A stretch of DNA of 53,798 bases from contig JAUQXK010000071.1 of the NCBI GenBank assembly GCA_030834695.1, forward strand, positions 1-53,798, written 5' to 3'. The translations under genes and the position numbers were made by a program. The first letter of the stretch is position 1. Every line of letters begins with the position of its first letter. A model generated the notes under the pieces. The model did not search any database and was not told the origin of the DNA. It saw nothing but the letters and a program-made list of their open reading frames with translations. Positions 4,425 to 20,983 of this stretch are shown piece by piece. This DNA is from Desulfobacterales bacterium (GTDB lineage Bacteria; Desulfobacterota; Desulfobacteria; Desulfobacterales; SpSt-501).

Positions 4425-5489
4425 TCATTCGACAGCCACCAGCGCGGCAGCCTCATCTATCCTGAACCGCGCGTCGAGAAATTGCTCGCACACATAAACG
4501 TTGGCACGGATATGGTCGGTGATGCGGGCGGTTTTGATTGTTCCGCCGGCGATTGCCAGCAACGGAATGAGGTTGTCCGCCAGGTGCACGTCCACGGCCG
4601 CCTCGGTGTGCAGGGTTTCCATCAATTTGCGGGCGGCTTCGCGGCCGACATCCTCGGCGGGTTTGCCCTTCTCTCCCAGTGCATCCGCGCCCACCAGCGT
4701 CCGACCTTCCGCGTCCACGGTCCACAGCGTGATCACCGTCCCGGGCGATGCGCTCCGGCAGTACTCGGCGCGGATATCGACGGCCGGCCCGGAGCCCAGC
4801 ACGGCGCCGGCCGATTCGGCCTGACGTTCAGCCACGCGTGCCTTTGCCAGAAATTCGGAGGCGGCTGAAATACCCTTTATCGCCGCCGGTCGGCAGCGCG
4901 AGCTCACTTCCAATCCGCCGTTCATCCGGCGGGCCGCCCGCCGCCAGAGGTCGATATCCTTGGAGGAGGATGCAGGAACGTCCGGCCGGATCCTCACCTT
5001 CAACATCCCCTGCCCTTTGGGGTAAAAGCCGCGATGCATGCCCACCACTTCGATCCGGCAGAATCGCCGAAACACCGGCAGTATCAGTTGCGTGAAGTAA
5101 TCCACCGGGATGCTCCAGCGGGTGTCCGTGCCGCCGCGGATCGCGAGGGTCGTTTCGCCCCCGGCGAACACGCAAGGCACCAGCAGCGCCTGCATCATGA
5201 GCGTGACGGAGCCGGCCGTGCCGATGTCGAAGGAGTAATCCCCAGGCGTCAGGGGCCCCGGCACAAACTCGACCTCTCCGGCGCCGACGCGCGCGCCCCT
5301 GACCCGTGCGCCGCTCATGCGGATCAGCGCTTGAATGGCGCTCAGATGCTGCGGCTTGAGGCCCGGGGTCGGACGGTTCTGTCTGATTCGCTCCGCCCGG
5401 AAGGGACGACCGGTCAGCACGGAGAGCGCCACGGCCGTGCGCAGAATCTGCCCGCCGCCTTCCATGAGAGATCCGTCGATGTGGATCAT
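4425..5489 (-). CDS. rtcA: RNA 3'-terminal phosphate cyclase
   Basis: A 354-residue enzyme converting RNA 3'-phosphate ends to 2',3'-cyclic phosphates using ATP, through a covalent His-AMP. The family signature begins at the start (MIHIDGSLMEGGGQILR), followed by RPTPGLKPQH, GSVTLMMQ and, near the C-terminus, HLADNLIPLLA. His in VDVHLADN is the expected adenylation site. An in-frame ATG at 5525 would add 12 residues but lies inside an extragenic repeat and has no ribosome site, so 5489 is preferred; neither start has a good Shine-Dalgarno. No rtcB or rtcR is nearby, so the gene stands alone, converging on the MocR-type gene. Confidence 0.9.
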   Translation of the reverse strand: MIHIDGSLMEGGGQILRTAVALSVLTGRPFRAERIRQNRPTPGLKPQHLSAIQALIRMSGARVRGARVGAGEVEFVPGPLTPGDYSFDIGTAGSVTLMMQALLVPCVFAGGETTLAIRGGTDTRWSIPVDYFTQLILPVFRRFCRIEVVGMHRGFYPKGQGMLKVRIRPDVPASSSKDIDLWRRAARRMNGGLEVSSRCRPAAIKGISAASEFLAKARVAERQAESAGAVLGSGPAVDIRAEYCRSASPGTVITLWTVDAEGRTLVGADALGEKGKPAEDVGREAARKLMETLHTEAAVDVHLADNLIPLLAIAGGTIKTARITDHIRANVYVCEQFLDARFRIDEAAALVAVE

Positions 5490-5522
5490 ATTTTTTACAT
5501 CGGCAATTGATATGCCATGATT

Positions 5523-5570
5523 CATTCCGGCAAACCCTGGATCAGGTCCAGGGCAAGCCCCGGAATCCAG
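5523..5570. repeat. Extragenic palindromic repeat remnant
   Basis: CATTCCGG at one end and CCGGAATCC at the other flank a hairpin CCCTGGA/TCCAGGG (5535-5553). This is the familiar 'CCGGAATGAC' class of dispersed repeat. It abuts the 5' end of rtcA and may have altered its start region. Confidence 0.5.
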
Positions 5571-15016: not shown

Positions 15017-18000
15017 TCACGCAAAAACCATCTCGATCACCGGCGCTTCCCATTTCTCCGCCCTGATACGGCCCCTGAAATCCTCCTGCGGGTCCATTCG
15101 GTCACGTTCAATCATGGCCACCACGCGCACCTCGCTGATTTCGTCAAGCTTGTCTTTCCATCGGCTGGACGCACTTTGCGACAACCTGCCCACACAGAAC
15201 CCCTCTTGGTCGCAAATCTTTATTGCCGCGTCTTCGGCTGCCAGAAAAACCTTCTCCCCGGCTTGAATCCGCGCCAGATGCGCATGAACGGCGTGGCTTT
15301 GCGGAAACACGCCGGCGTAGTCGAGATAGATGTCGCTCAGCCCCAGCGCTTCGTATTGCCGGAATGCACTTTCCTCCTCCCTGCCGGCGTCGGCCGAGCC
15401 CTTTCTGTGAAGGAAGCATTCCCTCTTGAGTCCCTTCAAGAACGGATTCGGCCGCTCCGCCAGCTTCATCAGGGCGAGGGTTTCCCTGGCCCGTGTCATG
15501 CCAACGTACAGGGTGCGGCGCTCCTCTTCGATTCGGGCCGGGTCGTCCGACCACGGCCAGCCGCCGTCGAGGATGATCACGTGGGCGAACTCCAGGCCTT
15601 TGGTGGAGTGGATGGTGCCGAGAAATATCCCGCTGCCCAGCGATTTTTCGCGCCGCTGCTCGGCGATGAAGTCGTATAGCGCATCGACCGCCCACCCGAC
15701 CGGCAGCATGGCATCCGCGGTTTCATCGACCAGTGCCTGGACGAAGCCATCCAGCATCTGCCACCAGGGGCTGCCCCTGCTATTCGAACTCAGTTCATCG
15801 AGCACGCCCAGCAGCTCCGAGGCTTTGCGGTTTTCCGCCTTGCGATCGGACAACGCCTCGATGAACGCCGCGAACTCGCGCACGCGGTGCAGCGGCAGGC
15901 TGGTTTCGAGGAGAACCTTCACGGGAAGCCCGGCCTCCTCCAGCACGGACCGGACCGGCGCCAGGTCCCTGCGGCTCCGCGCCAGAACCGCGCATTCCGC
16001 CCAGTCCAGATCCGGCGAAAGCCCTCTCAGGCGTTCCAGCTCGGACTTCACGCACTCGGCCTGGTGCCGGCGGTTCCCGACGGCGACCACCTGCACCCGG
16101 CCCTTCGACACCGGATCGAGCAGCTCCCACCGGCCTCCCGGGCTGTTGGGCGCTCTCTCGCGGTTGATGCGGATCGGGTGCTCGGTTTTCATCCGATCCA
16201 GGTTGCGCCGGATCAGCTGGTTGGAGGCGTCGATGATGTGCCGGGTGGACCGGTAGTTCTCTACGAGATAAACCACCTTAGCCGGATAGTCCTGCTGGAA
16301 CCGGCGGATGAACTCCACGTTCGCGCCTCTGAAGGCGTAGATGTTCTGGTCGTCGTCGCCGACCGCCATGATTGAAAGCTTCCCCTCGCCGTCCTCCAGG
16401 GTGCGTCCGGCGATGGCCGAGACCAGGTCGTACTGCGCCTGGTCGATGTCCTGGTACTCGTCCACCAGGATGTGGCTGGTAACCCCCAACAGCCGGTCGC
16501 GTATTTCGTCCGGCGGGACGCCCGGCACGTCGGACTCGCCCCTGAGAAGGCGCACCGCGTCGACGACGATTTTCCCAAAGTCGATTTCCCGGTCGCGGCT
16601 GGCCTCGGCCAGTTCTCGAACGGAGATGCCGGCGATCCGCATGGCGGCCCCGTGATAGGTGGCCACCAACACCCCGCCCGCCTCTTTCCCTACCAGGGCG
16701 TTCAACCGCCGGCGCAGGCTGACCGCGGCGCTGTGGTTGAAGCATAAGACCAGGATCTGCCGGGACGGCACCCGCTCGACCTGCAGGAGGTAGGCGCAGC
16801 GGTGCACGACCACGGTGGTTTTTCCGGAGCCGGGACCGGCGAGCACGAGCGTGTTCTGCTCCAGCGAGCTGCCGACGGTGGCGATCTGAACCGGGTTGCC
16901 GAGCTTTTCGACGATGTTCCGGTAGGTTTCCTGGGTGGTGGCCCTTTTGATCACATCCTGCCGGTCGGCGAAATACTTTCTGACGAATTTGATGCGCCCG
17001 AGCGTGAAATAATCCAGCACCAGCGCAAGCGCCCGGGTAATCTTTTCCACTGCCAGCTGCACATACGCCATCATCACGTGCACCTGAAAGCGCTTCTCGC
17101 GGTAGTGCACGGCCAGCGGCTTGAAATCCCCCACGGTGTAACGCCGGGCCCGGTCTTCGGTTTTGAGCCTGACGGTCATGGCCTGCCGCATGATCGCCAA
17201 ACCGCCCTGCAGGGTGATGGCTTTGTGCTCGTGCAGGAACATGAGCGCGCGATCGACCGCGGCCAGCGGTTTCTTGACTTCGGACCTCAATGCGATGTCC
17301 GCCAGAACGGCGGCGGTCAGTTCGTTGCTCGCGAAGGACAGGGTCACATCGCCGCCGTTGGCGGCTCCAGGCTCCGTCAGCGTCTTCTCGGCCTTCTCGA
17401 CCAGCATTTTCAAAATGACGAAGGCGGTCTCGCGCCTCAGCCGGGCGGTCTTCCGGATCGCTTCCCAGCTGCGCTGCAGCCGCACCTGGAACCGGTCCCG
17501 CCCGAGGTGCTGCAGCTCCAGGCTCCCCAGGCCGGCGGCCAACCCTTTGCCGTCGCGAGACAGGCCGGTTACCAGCGCCCGGACCGCCAGGGGGGTGGCC
17601 TCCGAGTCGTCGGTTTTAACCCTCTGGGCCATTCGCCGCACGTCGAGCTCGACCCAGCGACCGTCGTCGGCGTCCGGATCCTCTGTCTGCATCAGGCCGA
17701 GGAGGCGTTCTTCGAGGTCGGACACCCTCTGCAGGACCTGCACGGCATGCCCCCGGCCCCTGGGCCGCAGAATGGCGGTCAGCAGGATGCCGCGGTCGAC
17801 CAGCCGAGCCTCGGCCATATCGTGGAGGGCGCGGATCACGACCTGCGCCGGAGTCAGGTTCCAGGCCTTCTCCACCTGCTGCAGCAGATCCCGGTCGTGG
17901 AACAGACTCTCGGCGATGCCGTCGGCGCTGAGCACCCGGTCTTCGGGGGCGTTGAACAGAGCGCGCAGGATGCTGCGCCACAATTCGGCGACAGACTCGG

Positions 18001-20230
18001 GCAGGCGCATCCCGGCGATGACGGCCTCGGCCTCTTCCAGGTTTTTGACCAGCGGCCGGCCCTGAAACACCTCGGTCACGTTCTCATCCCGGCTCAGAAA
18101 ACCGCCCCTCTCGAGCCAGGCGATCGCGGTCCTGACCTTGGTGCCGCCGGCTTCCCGGGCGTCCTCTTTAAATTCGGCCAGGTCTTCGTCGCGCAGCAGT
18201 TCGTCGCTCGTGACGACGATCTCACCGGACCGATTGCGCCGGGCACGTCTCAGCGCGCGCAGAACGCGCTCGATCTCGCGCTTCTTGATCTCCGCCATCG
18301 CCCCCTTGCGGAACTGCAGGCTGTCGTCGCCGGGCGCGTAAAGCAGCACGCACCGCGCCAGTTCGCCGTCCCTCCCGGCCCGGCCGGCCTCCTGGATGTA
18401 GTTCTCGAGCGAGCCCGGCATTTCGAAATGCAGGACCAGCCGCACGTTGGCCTTGTCGATCCCCATGCCGAACGCACTGGTGGCGCAGATGACGGCGACC
18501 CGGCCGCCGACGAAGGCGTCGATGATGTCCCGCTTCTCCTTGGCGTCCAGGCCGCCATGGAACGCCTCCGCGGCCATCCCCTGGCGGCGCAGGAAATCGC
18601 GGATCTCTTCGGTTTTCGCACGGGTCTCCGCATATACGATCGCGCTGCCGGAGGCGTCTTCCCGAAAGGATTCCGACAGAATTTCGAAGGTGCGTTCGAG
18701 CTTCTCGGCGACGCCCACCGGCAGCACCTCAAACGCAAGGTTCTCACGCTCCACCCCTCCGGCGAAAAGCTTCAGCTCCTGGCCCAGTTCGTTGCGGAAA
18801 TGCGAAGTGATATCCTCGATCACATCGGACTTGGCCGTGGCGGTGAAGCAGCAGACCGGGGGCACCGGCTGGCCGAATTCGGCCGCGAACTCACGGATAA
18901 ACCGGGCGGCATAGAGGTAATCCGGCCTGAAATCGTGGCCCCACGCGGAGACGCAATGGGCCTCATCGAAGACCCAGCACCCGATTTCGCGTTGGCTCAG
19001 CACGGCTCGCACGGAGCGGCTGCGCAGCTGCTCGGGGGCGATGTAAAGGATCGCCACGTCGCCCAGCCGGATGCGCTCCAGCATCTCGCCGCGCTCCGGC
19101 GGCGTCTGCAGCCCGCTGACAGCCGCGGCAAAGGGGGTGCCCGTGGTCTTCATAAGGTTGTCCACCTGGTCCTTCATCAAGGCAACCAGCGGGGAAATGA
19201 CCACGGTCATCAGCCCCCGGCAGCGATGGCGAACCAGGGCCGGAAGCTGGTAGCAGACCGATTTCCCGCCTCCGGTCGGCAGGATCGCCAGAAGCGGCCG
19301 GCCCTGCATCCCGTCCATCACGATGGTTCTTTGAAGGCTCTGCCCATCGGAGGTCATCGGCTTTGCCCGGAAACCGGCGAACCCGAAAAACCGCTCAAGG
19401 TTCGACTCCGGGTGGTGGTGCTCACGGCAATAGCTGCACGCCTCGTCCCCGCAGGGTGTCTGCCTCAGCCGCGTCAAAACAACGGCGATCTCGGGAAACC
19501 GGTAGCGCACCCAGGGAGGGAGCACGGAGTTGGTGCCGGCGACCTGGAGCCACGCCAGGCAGTATGCCAAAACAGGCCTTCTGATGTGATCTTCCAGCAG
19601 GCGGGATGCCGTCTCAACGACCGCCTGTCGGCACACACGCCCTGCCGCTGTTTCGACCAGAAACTCCAACGCCGCCTCCGGTGACATAAATCCTTTGGCG
19701 CCCACGGCGGCGAATACGGCCGCCAAGCCGTCTCCCGAAAAGCCGTTGAAGAGGCTGGCTTCGAAACAGAACCGGTAAAGATCGATGGGGTGAGATAATC
19801 CGCCGCCGCTGCCCCGGAAGCTCTCCCACTGGTCGCGGAAGACCGAAGCGGCCAGCCTCGCGTCGGCCACCGGGTCGCTCACGGAGGATCGAACGAGTTT
19901 GTAGTTTTTCACCAGGCGATGGTAGGGGTTTTGGGGGAACGCCAGCGGGGACAAATAGAGGGTGTCGATCACCGGCTTTACCAAAACGGCGAGCCCGGGA
20001 TAAGCCGCCTGCAAAATTGGGAAGTCGTGGCCCAGGAGGTTGTGCCCGAGGACGAAGTCGGCGGAGGAGGCGACTTCCTCGATTTGAGACAATGTTTTTT
20101 TAAGGGAAGATCCGGAGCTTGTCTCAACGATGCGATCGTTGAAAACGGCCCCGATCCGGTGGATTCTCCCGCTCTTGGTCGCTTCAATATCCAAAAGCAG
20201 CGTGCGGGATAAAAGCTCATCCAGGGTCAT
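15017..20230 (-). CDS. DEDD exonuclease-RecQ-UvrD triple fusion helicase
   Basis: About 1737 residues hold three enzymes in one chain. (1) An N-terminal DEDD 3'-5' exonuclease-like domain (LLLDIEATKSG, GHNLLGHDF, SDPVADARLA); the usual catalytic His five residues before the last Asp is Ser. (2) A cysteine/histidine patch (CGDEACSYCREHHH) that may bind zinc. (3) A RecQ helicase: LPTGGGKS near 315, VFDEAHCVSAWGHDFRP, motif VI QEAGRAGRDG. (4) A UvrD/PcrA helicase: AGPGSGKT near 1130, ILVDEYQD, GDDDQNIYAFRG, GTIHSTKGLEF, YVGMTRARE. A winged-helix/linker region separates the helicases. Such fusions are known but rare. ATG 20230 is taken because AGG lies five bases upstream; ATG 20257 has no ribosome site. 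Likely in DNA repair or defence. Confidence 0.9.
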   Translation of the reverse strand: MTLDELLSRTLLLDIEATKSGRIHRIGAVFNDRIVETSSGSSLKKTLSQIEEVASSADFVLGHNLLGHDFPILQAAYPGLAVLVKPVIDTLYLSPLAFPQNPYHRLVKNYKLVRSSVSDPVADARLAASVFRDQWESFRGSGGGLSHPIDLYRFCFEASLFNGFSGDGLAAVFAAVGAKGFMSPEAALEFLVETAAGRVCRQAVVETASRLLEDHIRRPVLAYCLAWLQVAGTNSVLPPWVRYRFPEIAVVLTRLRQTPCGDEACSYCREHHHPESNLERFFGFAGFRAKPMTSDGQSLQRTIVMDGMQGRPLLAILPTGGGKSVCYQLPALVRHRCRGLMTVVISPLVALMKDQVDNLMKTTGTPFAAAVSGLQTPPERGEMLERIRLGDVAILYIAPEQLRSRSVRAVLSQREIGCWVFDEAHCVSAWGHDFRPDYLYAARFIREFAAEFGQPVPPVCCFTATAKSDVIEDITSHFRNELGQELKLFAGGVERENLAFEVLPVGVAEKLERTFEILSESFREDASGSAIVYAETRAKTEEIRDFLRRQGMAAEAFHGGLDAKEKRDIIDAFVGGRVAVICATSAFGMGIDKANVRLVLHFEMPGSLENYIQEAGRAGRDGELARCVLLYAPGDDSLQFRKGAMAEIKKREIERVLRALRRARRNRSGEIVVTSDELLRDEDLAEFKEDAREAGGTKVRTAIAWLERGGFLSRDENVTEVFQGRPLVKNLEEAEAVIAGMRLPESVAELWRSILRALFNAPEDRVLSADGIAESLFHDRDLLQQVEKAWNLTPAQVVIRALHDMAEARLVDRGILLTAILRPRGRGHAVQVLQRVSDLEERLLGLMQTEDPDADDGRWVELDVRRMAQRVKTDDSEATPLAVRALVTGLSRDGKGLAAGLGSLELQHLGRDRFQVRLQRSWEAIRKTARLRRETAFVILKMLVEKAEKTLTEPGAANGGDVTLSFASNELTAAVLADIALRSEVKKPLAAVDRALMFLHEHKAITLQGGLAIMRQAMTVRLKTEDRARRYTVGDFKPLAVHYREKRFQVHVMMAYVQLAVEKITRALALVLDYFTLGRIKFVRKYFADRQDVIKRATTQETYRNIVEKLGNPVQIATVGSSLEQNTLVLAGPGSGKTTVVVHRCAYLLQVERVPSRQILVLCFNHSAAVSLRRRLNALVGKEAGGVLVATYHGAAMRIAGISVRELAEASRDREIDFGKIVVDAVRLLRGESDVPGVPPDEIRDRLLGVTSHILVDEYQDIDQAQYDLVSAIAGRTLEDGEGKLSIMAVGDDDQNIYAFRGANVEFIRRFQQDYPAKVVYLVENYRSTRHIIDASNQLIRRNLDRMKTEHPIRINRERAPNSPGGRWELLDPVSKGRVQVVAVGNRRHQAECVKSELERLRGLSPDLDWAECAVLARSRRDLAPVRSVLEEAGLPVKVLLETSLPLHRVREFAAFIEALSDRKAENRKASELLGVLDELSSNSRGSPWWQMLDGFVQALVDETADAMLPVGWAVDALYDFIAEQRREKSLGSGIFLGTIHSTKGLEFAHVIILDGGWPWSDDPARIEEERRTLYVGMTRARETLALMKLAERPNPFLKGLKRECFLHRKGSADAGREEESAFRQYEALGLSDIYLDYAGVFPQSHAVHAHLARIQAGEKVFLAAEDAAIKICDQEGFCVGRLSQSASSRWKDKLDEISEVRVVAMIERDRMDPQEDFRGRIRAEKWEAPVIEMVFA

Positions 20231-20288
20231 TGATGCCTGTCCAGTGCTTGTTGACATCTGATGTATAAAACATTATCATCAACGCACC

Positions 20289-20552
20289 ATGAGAACAACT
20301 GTAGATATCGACGACCCAGTCCTGAAGGACCTGAAGAAACTCCAGAAAAAGGAAGGCAAATCGCTCGGACGATTGATTTCCGACCTGTTGGCCCAGGCGA
20401 TCGGTGACCGCAAATCCGCGAAGGCCCATAGGCGGCCGATCCAATGGATTTCAAAAGACATGGGCGCCCGAATGGACGTGGCGGATACCGAGGCAGTGTA
20501 CTCCGCCATGGAAAAAGAACCGCGGCCTAAAACCGGGAACAACCGAGCATGA
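20289..20552 (+). CDS. vapB: VapB-type antitoxin
   Basis: The 87-residue protein starts with MRTTVDIDDPVLKDLKKL, the beta-strand and helix of a ribbon-helix-helix DNA-binding antitoxin. A positively charged middle and a variable tail that would wrap the toxin follow. Its stop overlaps the toxin start by four bases (ATGA, 20549-20552), the usual coupling for vapBC. The gene is divergent from the helicase fusion, whose start region lies only about 60 bases away, so the antitoxin operator may overlap the helicase promoter. Confidence 0.85.
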   Translation: MRTTVDIDDPVLKDLKKLQKKEGKSLGRLISDLLAQAIGDRKSAKAHRRPIQWISKDMGARMDVADTEAVYSAMEKEPRPKTGNNRA

Positions 20553-20983
20553 GTTTTGCCCTTGATGTCAACATCCTGCTTTACGCTTCCGATACGAGCA
20601 GCCCCCACTTCGAACGAGCCAGATCCTTTATCGAGTCCTGCATGGTTCAAGATGAGGTTTTCACCGTAGGATGGTCTACGGTGATGGGTTACTTGCGGGT
20701 AGCCACCCACCCTGCCATATTTGACCGCCCTTTATCACCCGATGAGGCGATGGCCAACATCGAAATGCTGCTGAACCTTCCCCAGGTGCGCTTTTTATCA
20801 GAGGAAGAGGGCTTCTGGAACGCTTATCGCACCACGACGGCAGAGGTTCCGACACGGGGCAATCTGGTGGTGGATGCCCATTTGGCCGCTCTGCTTCGAC
20901 AGCATGGCGTGAAGACGCTATATACGCATGACCGCGATTTCCTGAAGTTTTCCTTTCTCGATGTCCGCGATCCCCTTTCATGA
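20549..20983 (+). CDS. vapC: VapC-type PIN-domain ribonuclease toxin
   Basis: A 144-residue PIN-domain protein. The acidic residues of the Mg2+ site are visible: Asp in FALDVNILLYAS, Asp in NLVVDAHLAALL and Asp in YTHDRDFLKF; the Glu position in the middle is less clear. PIN toxins of this subgroup (TA_VapC/'DVNILLYA') cut RNA, often tRNA. It is translationally coupled to the antitoxin. The target RNA cannot be deduced. Confidence 0.88.
   Translation: MSFALDVNILLYASDTSSPHFERARSFIESCMVQDEVFTVGWSTVMGYLRVATHPAIFDRPLSPDEAMANIEMLLNLPQVRFLSEEEGFWNAYRTTTAEVPTRGNLVVDAHLAALLRQHGVKTLYTHDRDFLKFSFLDVRDPLS

Follow-up and report, generated by a model that had tools for sequence, protein, structure and literature searches.

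The window, that is, the whole stretch of 53,798 nucleotides analysed from a contig of a Desulfobacterales bacterium, carries on its reverse strand a gene whose product was found to contain, in this order, a DEDD exonuclease-like domain, a Cys patch, a RecQ core, a middle region of about 450 residues, a UvrD-type SF1 motor and a C-terminal tail (Table 1). A fusion of three enzymes in one open frame had been proposed in a sequence-only reading of this DNA, and the proposal holds: the frame has 1746 codons, or 1737 if counted from M10, with RecQ and UvrD recognized by Pfam and the exonuclease by profile comparison. M10 is an alternative start, an in-frame ATG at position 20230, where the earlier reading had placed the end of the gene; a start at this codon is plausible because a GGACAGG stretch adjoins it immediately on the 5' side. 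The vapBC pair reported to lie back to back with the fusion is likewise present, VapC being identified by its family and VapB by its position. With 31 bases between the start codons, the promoters of the fusion (read from its first ATG) and of vapB must overlap each other or coding DNA.

Table 1. Features of the fusion gene and the adjoining vapBC pair, in positions of the window
Feature	Positions	Strand	Basis or remark
Whole gene, 1746 aa	15017..20257	-	Single open frame; whole match kept in relatives
C-terminal tail, residues 1627-1746	15020..15379	-	Match of a Sphaerotilus SF1 helicase extends to residue 1745
UvrD/PcrA/Rep-type SF1 helicase, residues 1111-1626	15380..16927	-	Pfam, fold match
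Middle region, residues 662-1110	16928..18274	-	Family-conserved; no relative detected
RecQ-type SF2 helicase core, residues 284-661	18275..19408	-	Pfam, NCBIfam, fold match
Cys patch before RecQ, residues 265-281	19415..19465	-	C269, C274, C277, H281
DEDD exonuclease-like domain, residues 12-150	19808..20224	-	D23, E25, D78, D132; Ser127 at the His place; H113
Divergent gap between the gene and vapB, 31 bases	20258..20288		Between start codons, from the fusion's first ATG
VapB-like antitoxin	20289..20552	+	Position; no family match
VapC PIN toxin	20549..20983	+	TIGR00028, 1.5e-36

Two motors and an exonuclease-like domain

A scan of genome contigs yielded 182 coding relatives, the best 80 of which were retained; the frames of several relatives run off short contigs. 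The window protein was aligned with the 77 of these 80 whose frame exceeds 1400 aa, leaving out L007, L066 and L080, and in the resulting 78 rows 260 columns show the window's residue in 95% or more of the sequences. A diverse set of 14 copies, nine from plasmids and five genomic, was compared as well.

The RecQ core matches DEAD (2.8e-27) and Helicase_C (4.9e-21) in Pfam and exceeds the TIGR00614 cut-off (282.5 vs 219.8 bits), which places it in the RecQ family, and it does not reach the cut-off of TIGR01389, the equivalog of E. coli-type RecQ (334.7 vs 640.2 bits). The other half contains UvrD-helicase (PF00580, 6.5e-41) and UvrD_C (PF13361, 1e-23), the domains of an SF1A helicase, and scores below the equivalog cut-offs of UvrD (TIGR01075, 177.8 vs 1144.45 bits), PcrA (182.9 vs 911.2) and Rep (TIGR01074, 160.6 vs 951.45). 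Structural re-alignment of AlphaFold2 models made from family alignments (mean pLDDT 87.0 for residues 1-670 and 82.4 for residues 640-1746) matched the RecQ core to 1oyy with Z 26.2 at 2.8 A over 347 aligned residues, and the UvrD half to 3lfu (Z 23.9, 2.7 A, 374 aligned) and 2is6_B (Z 25.6, 4.6 A, 447 aligned). The motor residues checked, among them the Walker A Lys, the DExx motif and the motif VI Arg, occur in all 78 rows apart from Ser333 (77 rows, one Leu), Thr1147 (77 rows, one Ser) and Arg1589 (76 rows, two gaps), and the sole change in the 14 diverse copies is one Ser333 to Thr. At the level of motifs and modelled folds, two complete motors of different superfamilies, SF2 of RecQ type and SF1 of UvrD type, are shown in one chain. 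RecQ and UvrD helicases alike travel 3'-5', which is also the direction in which DnaQ-type exonucleases digest; the "opposite polarity" once ascribed to the motors is wrong, as the parenthesis attached to that very statement gave both as 3'-5'. The middle region between them matched no Pfam family and no PDB sequence, and a profile comparison of residues 655-1125 with 16 RecQs found nothing beyond the core, i.e., no match to the RQC or HRDC parts.

The exonuclease-like domain has no match among the nuclease families of Pfam, even when searched alone at E up to 10, and a profile search with it yielded no convincing match among PDB sequences, the best being a glutathione transferase at 0.023. 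Compared with 15 DnaQ/PolC-type domains, a profile made from 46 family sequences reached a probability of 97.7% over 119 columns (E 1.5e-12, in a single comparison). Other sets scored lower, an ExoI-type set at 7.9%, RNase_H_2 at 42.6% and another DEDDy set at 67.7%, with 65-67 columns aligned in each case. The assignment rests on this profile comparison; structure searches of the models gave helicases. The four acids D-E-D-D of a DEDDh exonuclease are present, D23 and E25 in 73 of the 78 rows (five gaps), D78 in 74 (four gaps), D132 in 76 (two gaps), and each of them in all 14 diverse copies. DEDDh enzymes have a His five residues before the last Asp, and it was also seen in the DnaQ/PolC-type reference domains inspected. 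In the window this D-5 position is occupied by Ser127, which the profile alignment sets against the catalytic His of the 15 DnaQ/PolC-type domains, in agreement with the Ser noticed before. The 78 rows hold N (53), S (17), A (6) or a gap (2) at this position, never His, and the 14 diverse copies all hold N; a residue other than His at D-5 is a family trait. The Tyr four residues before the last Asp, which marks the DEDDy type of WRN and RNase D, is replaced by Asp128 in the window, and the D-4 column holds D in 59 rows, N in 13, S in two, K in one, H in one and a gap in two. Judged from sequence, the protein is by its cores a member of the RecQ and UvrD superfamilies and by its D-5 residue not a DEDDh enzyme.

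Since the general-base His is lost in every aligned member, the nuclease would be slow, gated, or limited to binding. The exonuclease may even be inactive, and it is a serious possibility, not far below even odds, that the domain is dead and binds 3' ends only, the protein being a two-motor translocase; such a state is compatible with the other readings discussed below. It would explain why the general-base position is never His in the 76 rows aligned out of 78 and why the DEDDy place has no Tyr in the 78 rows either, but the four acids, needless for a dead fold, are kept wherever they align, which suggests that metal binding still matters, and H113 is found in each of the 76 rows aligned there and in all but one of the 14 diverse copies.

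Ahead of RecQ, the Cys/His patch described earlier is supported by C269, C274 and C277 in all 78 rows and by H281 in 71. In the 14 diverse copies C fills the three columns in 12, 12 and 13 cases and H281 is H in two, and Nostoc (L099) and Aliarcobacter (L100) lack all or part of the patch. From its residues the patch may be regarded as a putative metal site. The three-part architecture, the absent His and the Cys patch, all reported from the window, are each family-wide, and the word "unusual" given to the protein fits its design but does not single out the window's genome, since relatives occur in several phyla.

Distribution, variants and neighbourhood

The distribution was searched with a profile of the middle region, which matched in 50 of 291 genomes of the window's class, in 38 of the 200 of them with completeness of 90% or more and contamination of 5% or less, and in one of six genomes of the genus. 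Among the matching 50, twelve were weak or piecewise, several being frames of 1620-1650 aa that probably form a second clade. The middle region had no match in 241 of the 291 class genomes and five of the six genus genomes, many of which are drafts. An empty site in the genus was looked for through a neighbouring ferredoxin-type protein, which matched at 28-41% only, so that no orthologous site was found. Besides the fusion, the window's genome keeps a separate RecQ (606-aa frame, 1.8e-235) and a separate 663-aa frame that matches the UvrD half.

In a FastTree tree of 87 rows, built on two core regions and with long-branch warnings, 19 phylum changes were counted among the 73 rows labelled by phylum, where the minimum possible is 7 and shuffles gave 35.2. 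The tree is clustered by lineage with some crossings, and the distance from the shuffles indicates that transfer is not rampant. The nearest row to the window is labelled Verrucomicrobiota, while the other rows of its eight-row clade are Thermodesulfobacteriota and Myxococcota; this placement may stem in part from mis-binned contigs.

At least 80% of the protein was found in one place in 23 of 72,556 plasmid records and in none of 50,697 phage records. In IMG/VR, the middle region has relatives on two contigs: a partial match at the contig end (L252) and a full-length copy of 50% identity near the edge of a 30-kb contig (L251:201-5492). About 2.3 kb from the latter, an ORF (L251:7776-8624) shows 28% identity to the transposase region of Mu-like Pseudomonas phages, and the copy may be a cargo gene or part of a host flank. 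Copies were also located on contigs of 2.4 to 5.1 Mb (L026, L041, L043) and of up to 6.5 Mb elsewhere; contigs of such length point to chromosomal copies and hence to a gene that is not restricted to plasmids.

Ten annotated plasmid copies belong to the same protein family, with 29-42% identity across 75-98% of the query, and bear the product name 'RecQ family ATP-dependent DNA helicase', which names the RecQ part only and gives no function for the whole protein. Several variants were seen on plasmids. In Hymenobacter swuensis (L247:5278-13435) the RecQ motor is divided between its two lobes by two overlapping genes, a 1421-aa protein having RecQ lobe 1 and a 1302-aa protein having RecQ lobe 2 and UvrD, which may reflect a frameshift or a true two-subunit form. 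A lone SF1 helicase of 684 aa on a Sphaerotilus plasmid (L250:8824-10878) matches residues 1094-1745 at 34%, from which it follows that the SF1 half with the tail also occurs alone. Plasmids of Deinococcus and Pseudanabaena encode shorter one-chain relatives (1618 and 1549 aa) with the first exonuclease motifs at their N-termini, and a Rhodobacter relative (L246, 1774 aa) contains the two motors, with no exonuclease motif recognized in it by simple patterns. The copy on a plasmid of Nostoc sp. ATCC 53789 (L249:8956-15701) is broken by an IS1634-family transposase gene and is followed, about 4 kb downstream, by an antiviral gene of the viperin family.

In the window, a PAS/histidine-kinase gene lies on one side of the fusion, with metallophosphatase, pentapeptide and RtcA genes beyond it, and vapBC and NADH-dehydrogenase-like subunits lie on the other; these neighbours are mainly metabolic or signalling genes. 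The gene of RtcA type, for an RNA 3'-terminal phosphate cyclase, is at 4428-5525 on the reverse strand. Searched by tblastn (E 0.01), VapC and VapB of the window were recovered from their own stretch (L081), the positive control, and from none of 118 loci with the fusion or a variant and none of 20 control loci. With 0 of 118 other loci bearing a relative, vapBC was ruled out as a conserved partner. A divergent VapC pair, with no tblastn relation to that of the window, lies 94 bases from a fusion relative on a Pseudanabaena galeata plasmid (L245:7258-8137); it repeats the window's arrangement and mildly favours the earlier reading. PIN is absent from the first 25 Pfam families in the tallies of the flanks, on the fusion and the control sides alike. 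Other toxin-antitoxin genes near copies are Doc with YoeB (one copy), HipA (three) and an unrelated VapC about 4.9 kb away (one). Seven of the ten annotated plasmid copies have toxin-antitoxin, restriction or CRISPR genes in their vicinity, including Cas6/Cas7d in Thiothrix and type I restriction in Allochromatium; near the remaining three no such product name appears. The neighbours are mixed, and homologues found only beside housekeeping genes, the outcome said beforehand to speak against a role in defence or repair, are not the case.

No recurring partner or operon was found among 1112 ORFs, predicted by a simple ORF caller, of the 85 loci that had any. The largest cluster of neighbours spans ten loci at a mean identity of 27%, and the high-identity clusters inspected (e.g., L039/L041/L043) come from close relatives with shared synteny. 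By the same simple caller, a same-strand ORF within 60 bp was present upstream in three and downstream in four of the 68 loci neighboured on both sides. Both the missing partner and the rarity of close same-strand ORFs suggest that the protein most likely acts alone.

Defence genes around the copies were also sought with PADLOC, comparing the flanks of 20 fusion loci in 20 genomes with 20 random stretches in ten genomes, all ten of them likewise positive for the middle region. ORFs of 110 aa or longer, located up to about 5 kb away, were thinned, mostly at random, to 145 of 171 on the fusion side and 145 of 168 on the control side, and searched at E 1e-15. The fusion flanks matched 109 models and the random stretches 42, where several models often fall on one ORF and none matched more than four of the 145 ORFs on either side; the comparison thus shows a weak tilt towards defence genes near the fusion. 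Among the matches listed, the fusion flanks gave mad2 four times and single matches to reverse transcriptase/DRT, Cas1, HKD+Snf2, DrmD, type IV restriction, HEC-06, a homing endonuclease and RecQ, and the controls gave type I and II methyltransferases, BrxH, DruE, SngC, mad2 and mad3. Of ten large flank ORFs re-examined, four match at 1e-12, two of them in locus L110 and the others (L107, L111) partial. At L110:12539-17524, a fusion copy is adjoined by a separate gene of RecQ type and by a type-IV-restriction-like helicase.

Likeness to known helicase-nuclease systems

WRN joins an exonuclease to a RecQ core in one protein, in that domain order, as the fusion does, and the RecQ cores match with Z ~22. 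Its exonuclease is of DEDDy type and it has no UvrD motor; the fusion retains neither the His nor the Tyr. RecBCD, AddAB and AdnAB unite an SF1 motor and a RecB-type nuclease in one multi-subunit machine. The SF1 part of the fusion matches AdnB with Z 20.8 and AddA with Z 20.1, but the fusion differs from these machines in having SF2 and SF1 motors in one chain with a DnaQ-type domain.

With respect to the helicases in PADLOC, the best stretch of each listed model of Gabija GajB, DpdF and PsyrT covers only one motor of the fusion. DpdF was set aside because the score lies below the NF041063 cut-off (201.4 vs 550 bits). Gabija was rejected too: no GajA nuclease gene lies beside the window's fusion, whose neighbours are the histidine kinase, vapBC and NADH-dehydrogenase-like genes, and no partner recurs elsewhere. 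The anti-phage system Hna, in the portion of the paper available, is a single gene with 3'-5' ssDNA exonuclease and helicase domains and a slow nuclease inhibited by ATP, its 845-aa protein carrying a pair of SF2 domains and, at the C-terminus, a PD-(D/E)XK nuclease (PMC13381803). From that portion Hna has neither the DEDD domain nor the SF1 motor, both present in the fusion, and identity with Hna was rejected, as size, domain order and Pfam content differ and the fusion lacks the PD-(D/E)XK nuclease with two SF2 domains. The available part of a study on Deinococcus deserti lists a DnaQ/DinG/RecQ protein, Deide_06510 (1683 aa), with a UvrD/REP helicase, Deide_06520 (849 aa), at the next locus tag, both in a table of the section that treats recA and translesion genes (PMC2669436). 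Compared by this description, Deide_06510 combines DnaQ and RecQ as the fusion does, and differs by its DinG part and the separate UvrD gene.

Proposed action and cellular role

The three activities share the 3'-5' polarity, so all of them fit one strand entered at its 3' end. We therefore favour, with a probability of about one half, a stand-alone accessory single-chain 3'-5' helicase-nuclease that serves defence or repair by acting on DNA whose 3' ends are free. Such a protein would load on a 3' single-stranded end, at a tail, gap or fork, and its motors, both moving 3'-5', would work in series on one strand; alternatively, they may act on the two strands of the fork or gap. The exonuclease, of the same polarity, would trim or merely grip the 3' end while DNA is fed past, either as a slow or gated nuclease, perhaps via the invariant H113, or as a 3'-end sensor that controls the motors. 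The cellular job, which is the least sure step, might be the handling of foreign or broken DNA. Between ordinary repair and defence against phages or plasmids, the balance tilts somewhat to defence, since carriage of the gene is patchy and partly by plasmids, and the window's genome has a RecQ of its own as well as a second UvrD-like helicase; patchiness and plasmid carriage moderately favour foreign-DNA handling over core repair.

Possible, though on balance doubtful, is a DNA-repair accessory, i.e., an extra processor of 3' ends or forks with a WRN-like exonuclease and RecQ, in which the UvrD motor strips proteins and which serves under replication stress rather than against invaders. The combination of exonuclease and RecQ known from WRN (by PDB titles) and the often ordinary genes around the fusion agree with it, as does, in the part of PMC2669436 available, the tabling of the D. 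deserti DnaQ/DinG/RecQ protein and its neighbouring UvrD/REP helicase with recA and translesion genes; the many class and genus genomes without a middle-region match (many being drafts), the plasmid carriage, and the RecQ and UvrD-like helicase already in the genome are difficult to reconcile with it. A function for plasmids or other mobile elements, such as replication restart, transfer or stability of large replicons, with the gene reaching chromosomes as well, seems improbable: an Aliarcobacter copy adjoins parA/parB and replication genes and the 23 plasmid records hold most of the protein, but the copies on megabase contigs and the lack of a recurring partner oppose it. An assembly artefact or chance frame, conceivable where high G+C makes long spurious frames frequent (e.g., a 960-aa antisense frame here), is ruled out by the homologues, since 75 of the best 80 of 182 relatives (the exceptions being L007, L015, L051, L053 and L080) hold the entire matched stretch in one open frame and ten annotated copies stand in plasmid records.

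A more specific form of the favoured helicase-nuclease, offered tentatively and rather unlikely as a whole, is a widespread single-protein immune machine, in which SF2 and SF1 motors would be controlled by a 3'-end-reading DnaQ-type domain with its catalytic His changed to Asn, and a gated nuclease would be switched on solely when both motors engage foreign or stalled DNA.

The open-access literature searched, with most subscription papers outside its scope, yielded no study of the three-part fusion. In conclusion, the family is real and widespread, unstudied so far as that literature shows, and combines a rare design with a family-wide change in the nuclease site. Machines of motor and nuclease are central to the repair of DNA breaks and to bacterial immunity, and in this family a single chain unites motors from two superfamilies with an end-reading domain, the motor residues being kept over great distances. 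As no partner gene was found, it can be tested by transferring a single gene into a laboratory strain.
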